A DNA stretch of 57,557 nt from Bacteroidaceae bacterium (GTDB taxonomy: Bacteria; Bacteroidota; Bacteroidia; Bacteroidales; Bacteroidaceae), in contig JAFZPZ010000049.1 of the NCBI GenBank assembly GCA_017552435.1, forward strand, positions 1 to 57,557, given 5' to 3'. Below, piece by piece: positions 3,764 to 57,211 of the stretch (positions are counted from its first letter, which is position 1; every line of letters starts with the position of its first letter). The notes under the pieces are model-generated. The model made no database searches, was not told where the DNA came from, and saw only the letters and a program-made list of their open reading frames with translations. A program made the position numbers and the translations under genes.

Positions 3764-4543
3764 TTACTTTACTTTCTTCTTCCCGTCTTCAATGTATATC
3801 CCCCGGGCAGGCTTGCCGGAAAGCCTGCGGCCCTGCAGGTCAAACCATGTACCATTTGACGATTCACCATTTCCTATTTCTTCATCTGAAGGAAGTACAA
3901 TTCCCGTTACAATCTCTGCCGATTTGTAGAACTCATTTGGGTCAAAGATGATTTGGTCGTTTACTTTACAATTAACTAAACTTATAAATCCACCGGTATA
4001 CCAAGGACCATAGCCTTCATAGATTCCCAGCAAGGTCGAAGCGCCAGTCATACCGATGCCTTCATACCATATGTAATTGTAATAATCTTGATAATCAGGC
4101 TCGACAGGTTGCCACCCTATTTCCGTCCAGTATTCTCCGCGATATTTGTATAGCTTCCTTTCTTTGATTGTCAATTCTGTAGGACCTACTTTAATAATAG
4201 TCTCTGGTTCGCTGGAAAAATCATACAGAAGTGCAGGCGTAGTACTGCCCGGTTCAATATAATAGACCTTCCCGTCATCTTCGTACAATGCTCCCTTGTA
4301 AAGATGGTCAAGGGGGTCGTAGAGACGATTTCTTGTAAGATAGAGCTTTATACACTGGCGGGAGCCAATCGCGGTGTCGCCCTCAAGGCTGAAAACCTCT
4401 TCCCATGTTGATTCTCCCGTGGAGTTCCCTCTGTAATAGGTCCACACCTTTCCATTCACCACAAAAGGGTGGTTAAGTGTACGAGCAAAAGCTCCGGGAC
4501 AGAGCAGCAAACATGCTGTGAATAGAAATAGACATTGTTTCAT
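3764..4543 (-). CDS. Small secreted protein with type IX-like C-terminal tail
   Basis: 259 aa. A signal peptide covers residues 1-20 (MKQCLFLFTACLLLCPGAFA). The body (residues about 24-210; FVVNGKVWTYY, EGDTAIGSRQCIKLYL, KVYYIEPGSTTPALLYDF, IWYEGIGM) is homologous by eye to residues 160-340 of the protein at 1-2088. After a short low-complexity linker (EIGNGESSNGT) it ends in WFDLQGRRLSGKPARGIYIE plus DGKKKVK, a tail typical of Prevotella secreted proteins and similar to type IX sorting signals. The linker is encoded by a 7-bp-period array at 3851-3881. Function unknown. Confidence 0.75.
   Translation of the reverse strand: MKQCLFLFTACLLLCPGAFARTLNHPFVVNGKVWTYYRGNSTGESTWEEVFSLEGDTAIGSRQCIKLYLTRNRLYDPLDHLYKGALYEDDGKVYYIEPGSTTPALLYDFSSEPETIIKVGPTELTIKERKLYKYRGEYWTEIGWQPVEPDYQDYYNYIWYEGIGMTGASTLLGIYEGYGPWYTGGFISLVNCKVNDQIIFDPNEFYKSAEIVTGIVLPSDEEIGNGESSNGTWFDLQGRRLSGKPARGIYIEDGKKKVK
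3851..3881. repeat. Heptad array inside the 3764-4543 gene (linker)
   Basis: Plus-strand units ACC, ATTTGACG, ATTCACC, ATTTCCT, ATTTCTTC run with a 7-8 bp period and encode the linker EIGNGESSNG on the minus strand, just before the C-terminal tail. It belongs to the same word family as the arrays at 21677, 28126, 28576 and 40370. Confidence 0.65.
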
Positions 4544-4777
4544 GGTCTTCTGTTTTATATAGTCTATGATTGCAAAATATAAGAGTTTTTCTTATTAAAC
4601 ACAACACCATTGAAGGATTTATTCTATTGAACCCCTATTTATGACGAATTCAACTCCTAAGGGCGTAGCAAATGGCTTAAAAATCTAGGCTCCATTATTC
4701 AGAACAATCTTACTGCCTGGATATGGCTGTAAAAAATCAAGATTTATGGTGAATCCATCGATTACAGGCATTTTAGC

Positions 4778-4935
4778 GAAACGCCGTATCAATCTCAACG
4801 AAACGGCATCTCAATAACGACAAAACGCCGTTTCATCTGGAACGATACGGCGTCTCAATCACATCGAAACGCCATTTGCAGACTCCTCGAGGCGACACGT
4901 GCAGACTCCCGGGACCAACACGTGCAGACTCCGGA
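4778..4935. repeat. Dyad array B: words GAAACGCCGTTTC and CACGTGCAGACTCC
   Basis: The left part repeats variants of GAAACGCCGTTTC (a near-perfect dyad) followed by ATCTCAAT-like spacers, about every 20-24 bp. The right part has three copies of GCAGACTCC, two of them as CACGTGCAGACTCC. The array fills the right half of the 400-bp gap between the gene starting at 4543 and the DUF3472 gene ending at 4952. The left half (4544-4777) holds a promoter-like TATATTTTG near 4573 and otherwise nothing I can name. Confidence 0.65.
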
Positions 4936-4951
4936 GGCAGCAAAAAGAGTT

Positions 4952-56800: not shown

Positions 56801-57039
56801 TCGGGTCGTTCCTTCTTGATGATTTCCTCTATGAAATACGGTGTTATGGGCAGGAAATAAACCTTGTCGGCAATGCCCTCACTGGTTTGGATGGTTGCGA
56901 CGTTGGGGTTGACGAGCACCGAATAGATGCCCTCCTCGCGAAGCGCTTTGAGTGCCTGGCTGCCGGAATAGTCAAACTCGCCTGCCTGACCAATCTTCAG
57001 GGCACCGCTACCTAATACGAGAACTTTCTTCAGATTCAT
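53818..57039 (-). CDS. carB: Carbamoyl-phosphate synthase large subunit
   Basis: 1073 aa, full length. Two ATP-grasp halves: residues about 1-400 ([55 protein letters not shown]) and 545-930 ([60 protein letters not shown]), oligomerisation domain between, and C-terminal MGS allosteric domain ([40 protein letters not shown]). Makes carbamoyl phosphate for pyrimidines and arginine. No carA is adjacent; an rRNA operon lies upstream. The leader carries a possible attenuator. Confidence 0.97.
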   Translation of the reverse strand: [1073 protein letters not shown]

Positions 57040-57080
57040 AATGCTTTTTTATTTCTTATATTTCCTATTTGTTCTTTTAA

Positions 57081-57123
57081 AATAAAAGCCACATCCGCTA
57101 ATTTGACAGCGAAAGTGGCTTTT
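57081..57123 (-). terminator. Terminator-like hairpin in the carB leader
   Basis: AAAGCCAC and GTGGCTTT enclose a second stem CGCT/AGCG; on the minus strand the hairpin is followed by TTTTATTTT. It lies between the carB promoter (57235-57242) and the carB ATG, as expected for an attenuator. Confidence 0.7.
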
Positions 57124-57211
57124 TATCTGAGACAGATAAACAGGCAGCATCCATCTCCCTCACGGCCTCTTGTCCTTTGCTCCATGTTCCTAGCCCCGTG
57201 TAACAGTTCAT
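57098..57211 (-). CDS. Possible leader peptide upstream of carB (37 aa)
   Basis: ATG at 57211 to TAG at 57098-57100; encodes MNCYTGLGTWSKGQEAVREM followed by 17 more residues. It lies on the carB leader transcript and ends within the terminator-like hairpin, the geometry of ribosome-coupled attenuation (compare the pyrBI leader of E. coli). About a third is encoded by a heptad array (57166-57200), so it may be accidental. Confidence 0.3.
   Translation of the reverse strand: MNCYTGLGTWSKGQEAVREMDAACLSVSDKKPLSLSN
57166..57200. repeat. Heptad array in the carB leader
   Basis: CCTCTTG, TCCTTTG, CTCCATG, TTCCTAG, CCCCGTG at exact 7-bp spacing; same word family as 36820-36854. Confidence 0.65.

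Follow-up and report, generated by a model that had tools for sequence, protein, structure and literature searches.

The stretch analysed here, a contig of 57,557 nucleotides from a Bacteroidaceae bacterium (GenBank assembly GCA_017552435.1, contig JAFZPZ010000049.1; "the window", or W in the comparisons of slots, is this whole stretch), carries short arrays of 7-base units in which the repeated word changes from locus to locus. We propose to read these arrays as small dispersed repeats: they would spread from one locus to another and, at permissive junctions, take each other's place as cassettes. We judge the chances of this reading to be about even. The arrays share their period, a preferred length and, in one family, an irregular architecture, and their copy number swings widely between congeners; inverted pairs are in excess, arrays reassort between paralogous slots, and relatives carry different words at one and the same slot. 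The window is one contig (C69) of the genome G000, which is 3.50 Mb long and 88% complete.

Period-7 arrays in the window and in related genomes

An array was counted when the self-match score at a given lag was at least 13, and Markov shuffles (30 for the window) served as controls. The window contains 5 arrays at lag 7, and each of the 30 shuffles contains none; lags 8, 12 and 15 give 1 array each, while lags 14 and 21 appear as multiples of 7. The scan of 272,246 bp of G000 and of 783 kb of congeners, with one trinucleotide-Markov shuffle each, gave 31 and 58 lag-7 arrays, respectively, and 0 in either shuffle. In G000, the counts were 6 at lag 8, 5 at lag 9 and 0–2 at lags 3–6. Seven is the dominant tandem period, and tandem 7-bp units exceed those of other periods, as they do in heptamer simple sequence repeats (SSRs). 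Periods 8 and 22 are also raised, which is expected where 7- and 8-base units mix within arrays. The first-pass annotation of this DNA, made from its letters only, had proposed lag-7 autocorrelation as a check: the global value of the window is not raised (0.252, versus 0.249–0.250 at neighbouring lags, multiples of 3 aside), whereas local arrays are far above the shuffles, so that the signal is carried by local arrays only.

The same annotation had listed sixteen heptamer arrays, and this observation is mostly real. Each site was examined by its 7±1 period score against 12 shuffles, a pass being a score expected at most once per window. Eleven of the 16 sites pass alone (11448, 11500, 14499, 27561, 28126, 28576, 30138, 36820, 38452, 40370 and 41763). 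Two others, 21677 (0 mismatches) and 3851 (3 mismatches), are unconvincing by period alone, yet match a dispersed 33-bp repeat, called family A and described below. The remaining three, 5088, 15963 and 57166, were dropped, since their score is not above background. It was rightly stated that the word varies while the period holds, and also that arrays lie both between genes and inside frames: among 108 arrays in 1.2 Mb, 71 are intergenic (51 between co-directional, 12 between convergent and 8 between divergent genes), 30 are coding and 7 lie at edges, on the basis of gene calls made with our own hexamer script, which also underlie the start-codon spacings given below. Random positions are coding in 83% of cases, so that the arrays are mostly intergenic, like heptamer SSRs. 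The only Rfam match in the window at gathering scores is 5S rRNA, none of the arrays being matched at these scores. The arrays of the window, and the gene that houses two of them, are as follows.

3847..3879, minus strand: family A array, sense AAATNGT, 3 mismatches, inside open reading frame (ORF) 3764-4543 (family match; period score at background)
11448..11535, no strand: inverted pair of GGATTAAG/TTAATCC arrays around a core of about 30 nt, hairpin (DNA fold -15.1 kcal/mol, z -5.0)
14502..14523, no strand: AGTTCAT array overlapping the start of ORF 13522-14508 (Tandem Repeats Finder score 30; per-site period score)
21677..21709, minus strand: family A array with 0 mismatches, over the stop of the upstream ORF (21690) and giving the start codon (AAATG) of ORF 20650-21678
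27561..27592, no strand: AATTNTG array between two chromate-transporter genes, relatives having other words (period; relatives)
28126..28158, minus strand: family A array in the spacer between purL and a chromate-transporter gene, giving the start codon of the latter (family match; ORFs)
28160-31957: purL (domains assigned by Pfam)
28576..28608, minus strand: family A array, in frame, in the glutaminase domain of purL (family match; Pfam; relatives)
30138..30169, minus strand: AATTGAG x4.6, in frame, in the purL linker AIRS_C/PurM_N-like, encoding NSQFSILNSQL (period; Pfam; relatives)
36825..36848, no strand: stretch of period 7 (GCTCCTT type) within the reading frame of an AMP-binding/acyltransferase gene (period score; relatives)
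38451..38482, minus strand: AAAAGTG array whose end is 5 nt upstream of the TACCTTTGC -7 box of gene 35906-38413 (period; motif)
40370..40414, plus strand: family A array that includes 8-mers and takes up the spacer from the purH-like ORF to mreB (family match; relatives)
41763..41788, plus strand: AACTCTC array, in frame, in mreC (period; relatives)

Preferred length, recurring words and the dispersed family A

The blocks are often about 32 bp long, with a 7-base word repeated about 4.5 times. In two data sets, the distribution of array lengths has a second peak at 31–33 bp and declines above 36 bp; the short peak at 18–21 bp consists of background and of family A pieces split by an 8-mer, and the second set was chosen for family A matches. 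Words also recur between loci: among 33 arrays of G000, 20 pairs of loci coincide, against 1.7 expected (maximum 9 in 500 randomisations). A count over all species (150 pairs versus 13 expected) was set aside in favour of that of G000, because it included orthologous arrays.

Family A has the consensus ATTTACN ATTTRAYS ATTTACN ATTTACN ATTT, that is, an irregular 7-8-7-7-4 layout, and sites 3851, 21677, 28126, 28576 and 40370 of the window share this layout. Its pattern, ATTTACNATTTRAYSATTTACNATTTACNATTT, was matched with up to 3 mismatches in G000 and up to 2 in a set of 61 incomplete genomes (G000 and 60 others of its genus), the reversed pattern serving as the control. G000 contains 53 matches (reversed control 1); the 61 genomes contain 942 copies against 17 in the reversed controls, and the family is present in 47 of them, with 0 to 101 copies per genome. 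In 1.2 Mb, 17 matches to the 7-8-7-7 layout were counted, 6 of which come from five genomes at the purH-mreB slot; each of nine alternative layouts gave 0–3. The same irregular unit thus sits at a fixed place across loci, which independent slippage would not repeat. In a scan of a species collection for exact matches, the best 80 of 119 stretches are titled as Bacteroidales groups, one of them only as Bacteroidia. Bacteroides acidifaciens DSM 15896 is among the carriers of a family A match (L190).

Family A is oriented. In G000 (30 loci), the sense strand reads AAATNGT in 23/24 arrays between co-directional genes and in 5/5 coding ones, and the collection loci give 74/85 and 13/13, while the other words show little strand bias. 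The distance from the end of the array to the predicted start codon is 6–7 nt in 9/24 cases in G000 and 27/85 in the collection, and 3–8 nt in 10/24 and 46/85, respectively. At 21677 and 28126, the final AAAT of the array followed by G makes the start codon itself. Promoters are another such position: 21 of 348 arrays end 5–7 nt upstream of TAnnTTTGC, against about 1.6 expected from the intergenic density of this motif.

We also note a further palindrome (CTCCGCGCAT...GCGCGCC), which is nested as an insertion within family A arrays in two species, at L154 (the purH-mreB spacer of G036) and at L061 (G027, the slot of 28126).

Inverted pairs, hairpins and shared cores

Most arrays are solo, but neighbouring arrays are inverted copies of one another more often than expected. 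In G000 and the genus stretches, this is the case of 12 of 31 neighbouring pairs, against 1.3 expected and a maximum of 6 in 2000 permutations, two of the 12 being the same element in G005 and G053; direct neighbours with the same word number 3/31 (1.2 expected). In a larger set, to which the collection loci were added and from which the stretches picked from G053 were removed, 25 of 89 pairs are inverted, against 5.9 expected. This count replaces an earlier one of 33/97, which held 16 G053 stretches fetched for their AATTNTG arrays, six of them for their inverted look. The arms measure 17 to 59 bp, most often 31–35. Seven inverted pairs that were folded form hairpins (z -3.5 to -12), whereas two solo arrays do not.

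Some of the cores between arms are shared as well. The motif CG[N]TAGC lies 8–13 nt before an array in 19 of its 24 occurrences within 60 nt, and the arms next to it are built of six different words or more. G053 contributes 11 of the 19, 9 of these from stretches fetched for AATTNTG arrays. Sequences like GCGTAGC are known to fold into very stable DNA mini-hairpins. In L216 and L232, a second core (AGAATACC...AACATT) lies between GGTTAG arms, and L061 has a similar one between GGGGCAA arms.

Reassortment of arrays at paralogous loci of G000

A locus that is present in many copies in G000 has an array slot to the right of a conserved palindrome. Eight of 20 such loci were compared; L318 has the palindrome and neither array type, and the others are without a full slot. 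Going by the right flank, L306 pairs with L307 (98%), L308 with L311 (98%) and L313 with L314 (85%), and each of these pairs combines one array of the GATTAAR type with one of the AATGAAA/AATTAAC type. Across loci, the arrays of one type are 72–97% alike (the low end being L308, a 22-nt copy) and those of the other 96–100%, while the left flanks are 66–82% alike, with means of about 74.5% within and 75.3% between types. One and the same slot hence takes either of two array types, in changing combinations with the left as well as the right flank. A second slot of this locus holds AATTGAC/T, AATTCAAA, AAATGAG or no array.

The copies L306–L325 consist of a small ORF and two array slots, and many full or partial copies exist in G000, with their modules shuffled; a 620-base query of this locus gives 54 matches in G000, many of them to arrays only.

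The same slots in relatives

The alignment of the purL region covered 12 of the 29 relative loci that were matched. Ten congener stretches around purL match on both sides only for the sites within 27.5–30.2 kb; purH-mreB-mreC and the acyltransferase gene of the relatives were placed on stretches other than the purL match.

In the purL linker (slot 30138), W and G045 have the word AATTGAG, G047 has AGTTGAG and G051 has AGTTGAG/AGTTTAG, and each of these arrays measures 32 bp. The other seven relatives have an inverted pair with different words (G053), non-heptamer repeats (G027, G036 and G013) or none (G012, G052 and G005). At slot 28576, G027, G005 and G053 have inverted pairs with other words, G051 has a short array and six relatives have none. 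These inverted pairs sit within the open purL frame of G027, G005 and G053, as in-frame palindromic inserts.

The purH-mreB spacer is a hot spot: of 13 relatives, 5 have family A, 4 other words and 4 no clear array. In the mreC linker, 2 of 13 relatives have arrays (AATGGTC in G008, AACAGCC/AATGGCC in G027), 2 have a GC-rich palindrome (G013 and G020) and 9 have neither. At 36820, the acyltransferase linker shows the 7-base period in W, G013 and G027, and also in G036, where the word is GACTCTT. G005 is a borderline case and six relatives lack the period; the length of the linker hardly varies across the 11 genomes. We had taken it for ordinary coding sequence, and withdrew this when a recheck showed the period in W, G013, G027 and G036. 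As a consequence, our confidence in copying went down from slightly better than even to even, and that in rewriting in place rose from quite unlikely to unlikely.

In the promoter of the acyltransferase gene, the two divergent -7 boxes are separated by 44 nt in five relatives that show no clear array, as against 46 nt in G008, which has an AATGTTC array. This nearly constant spacing, with or without an array, indicates that arrays can replace sequence rather than add to it. The annotation had suggested comparing sister loci for precise insertions: several arrays turn out to be length-neutral replacements, while words do differ at one slot.

Distribution among genomes and candidate enzymes

The counts of family A and of AAT-type arrays in the 61 genomes are moderately correlated (Spearman 0.51), yet in G050 one of the two reaches 57 while the other stays at 0, so that array families can expand separately; 7/61 genomes have no match to either of these two patterns. 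In a sample of the phylum, the AAT-type pattern occurs in 115/296 genomes, and G000 has the most (258 overlapping matches, 14 with the reversed control); in a few of the 296 genomes, control matches exceed the real ones.

No match was found in G000 (88% complete) to PF01797, the Y1 transposase that accompanies repetitive extragenic palindromic (REP) sequences in REP/RAYT systems. Of the 61 genomes, 22 have Y1_Tnp, and their array counts are no different from those of the rest (p 1.0 and 0.54). RVT_1 occurs in 20/61, and AAT-type arrays are, if anything, fewer there (p 0.47 and 0.011). MutS_I is found in 57/61 genomes; G042, G045, G047 and G056 have no match, and G045 is array-rich. The comparison of presence with array counts thus gives no support to Y1 transposase, reverse transcriptase or the loss of MutS as drivers.

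Possible mechanisms

If the arrays are dispersed cassettes, the unit would measure about 32 bp (4.5 heptamers) and occur either alone or paired, as inverted arms that flank a short core and fold into a hairpin. It would settle at spacers between co-directional genes, at the edge of core promoters and in variable protein linkers, where a period of 7 yields the same codons in every frame. Exchange would proceed by ectopic, recombination-like copying between arrays or array-armed hairpins rather than by a dedicated transposase, slippage may seed and homogenise the units, and the positions at start codons and -7 boxes would reflect tolerance together with some use as leader or upstream promoter element. 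The annotation had left the choice between slippage and an unknown copying process: copying fits better with the layout, the length, the recurring words and the exchange at slots, while slippage may still homogenise units.

Several observations weigh against this proposal. In the larger set, direct pairs with the same word (23/89 versus 6.3 expected) match the inverted pairs in frequency, although part of the direct pairs are probably single arrays split by an 8-mer. Crossovers in the palindrome to the left of the first paralogous slot could reassort the gene halves, the array staying where it is. The strand and the start-codon spacing of family A are also expected from function and selection. 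Rewriting is length-neutral at some sites (44 versus 46 nt between the -7 boxes; two words at nearly one length at 36820). No clean pair of an empty and a filled site with an exact boundary was found, the closest genome being 91% alike in purL, and the scan of the 61 incomplete genomes for Y1_Tnp and RVT_1 identified no enzyme.

Of the other explanations, the one that arrays are functional sites, kept for use by a protein, the ribosome or RNA polymerase as start-codon leaders or upstream promoter modules, seems to us somewhat unlikely. The strand bias of family A, its gap of 6–7 nt to the start codon and the excess of arrays just upstream of TAnnTTTGC speak for it; on the other hand, the other words have little strand bias, arrays sit in frame inside purL and mreC, the same slots are empty in some relatives, and some genomes are without either pattern. 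We considered family A as an A-rich leader of the kind known in Flavobacterium johnsoniae, where adenines at -3, -6, -12 and -13 matter (PMC6847099); the AAAT positions match these adenines poorly, and this candidate was rejected. It is less likely still that the arrays arise by replication slippage, the polymerase favouring a 7-nt misalignment, so that every locus acquires its array independently and later changes, rewriting and homogenisation included, happen on the spot. PMC4679880 credits Mrazek et al. 2007 with the proposal of slippage at 7 nt. The dominance of period 7 over the other periods tested agrees with it, as do the concerted change of all purL units (the shift from AATTGAG to AGTTGAG may be slippage creating or homogenising units) and the different, length-neutral words of the 36820 arrays. 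The 7-8-7-7-4 layout, the word coincidences, the length of about 32 bp, the paralogous reassortment and the inverted pairs all argue against it, and with MutS in most genomes its loss is not a general explanation of those that are rich in arrays.

The idea that the arrays are non-autonomous transposons, of the type of REP sequences or miniature inverted-repeat transposable elements (MITEs), mobilised in trans by a transposase of the Y1 or another family, appears to us the least probable. Inverted arms with shared cores (CG[N]TAGC, with the bias towards G053 mentioned above) are in its favour, and so may be a slight excess of short direct repeats outside the arms, which are candidate target-site duplications (8/33 of at least 4 nt; 200 shuffles give a mean of 2.9 and a maximum of 7). 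Conversely, Y1_Tnp has no match in G000 and most of the other genomes, array counts do not differ with it, and reverse transcriptase shows no positive link, in genomes that are incomplete. A further, doubtful reading would make the arrays tiny, transposase-free hairpin elements of Bacteroidales, with arms of about 32 bp, a stable mini-hairpin core (GCGTAGC, GCGGTAGC, GCGATAGC) and a programmable word; solo arrays would be half elements, copying would go through folded single-stranded DNA, and the core and the pairing of the arms would persist while the word of both arms is rewritten together. If true, this would help explain why heptamer repeats are so abundant in bacteria.

The preferred size, the fixed layout of one family, the paired arms of some arrays and the swapping at slots turn a statistical oddity into discrete units, so that one can count among close strains how often they are gained, lost or swapped. 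Heptamer units are also shown inside housekeeping genes such as purL and mreC.

Other features of the window

The spacer between purL and the next gene contains a 21-bp tandem repeat with a palindromic unit (TATTTTCAAGCCTTGAAAATA), in four copies (32181-32264). The purH-like ORF (39771-40370, 199 aa) has an MGS domain, whereas of the AICARFT profile it covers no more than positions 1 to 59, and the matches of relatives to it stop at about the same point. A GC-rich palindrome of the type CCCCCTAACCCCCTTTAGGGGGAG lies at 15995-16012; it is dispersed (L042, L071, L090, L308, L309), often beside heptamer arrays, and similar palindromes lie inside mreC of G013 and G020. A 5S rRNA gene (57420-57530) is found at the end of the contig, where the assembly probably breaks in an rRNA operon.

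Comparison with known systems

Rickettsia palindromic elements are palindromic inserts kept in frame inside housekeeping genes. The inserts in purL resemble them in this respect; the Rickettsia elements are not known to have the heptamer structure, word diversity and slot exchange seen here. Elhai is said to have described, in 2008, small dispersed repeats of Nostoc that are often nested in heptamer arrays. They would likewise be very small and nested, as is the GC-rich palindrome that splits a family A array in G036.

Heptamer repeats as such are already known, including in Bacteroidetes, Xanthomonas and Nostoc. The annotation was mistaken in knowing of no description for Bacteroidota, since PMC4679880 reports TAACTGA and other heptamers in five Bacteroidetes. 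The TAACTGA repeats of Beggiatoaceae, cyanobacteria and these Bacteroidetes are, like the arrays described here, near start codons, in forward orientation and patchy among relatives (PMC4679880). The words differ here, however, and one unit of family A, always in the same position, is an 8-mer; tandem TAACTGA occurs as one doublet in the 2.16 Mb scanned and not at all in the window. In the literature covered, which leaves out most subscription papers, neither cassette exchange nor a 32-bp size nor heptamer-armed hairpins are reported for Bacteroidales.

The P6b hairpin of the Nostoc trnL intron (PMC4476775) also has a stem made of 7-base motifs with variable bases, and one class of motifs replaces another in place; it is a single intron locus, whereas the arrays here are dispersed. 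Across a wide range of prokaryotes, no intergenic tandem repeat is more abundant than the heptamers, according to a 2018 survey of 7,006 prokaryotic genomes (PMC6344855), which gives no clear clue to their function. With these prokaryotic heptamer SSRs (PMC6344855, PMC4692102), our arrays share the period, the intergenic position, the variability between relatives and the open question of function, and the Xanthomonas repeat GGGNATC has one variable base per unit, as in the arrays here (same papers, and Mrazek 2007 as cited there). Unlike the SSRs described in these sources, the arrays of G000 and its relatives come in many words per genome, with a length of about 32 bp, in inverted pairs and with exchange of cassettes.

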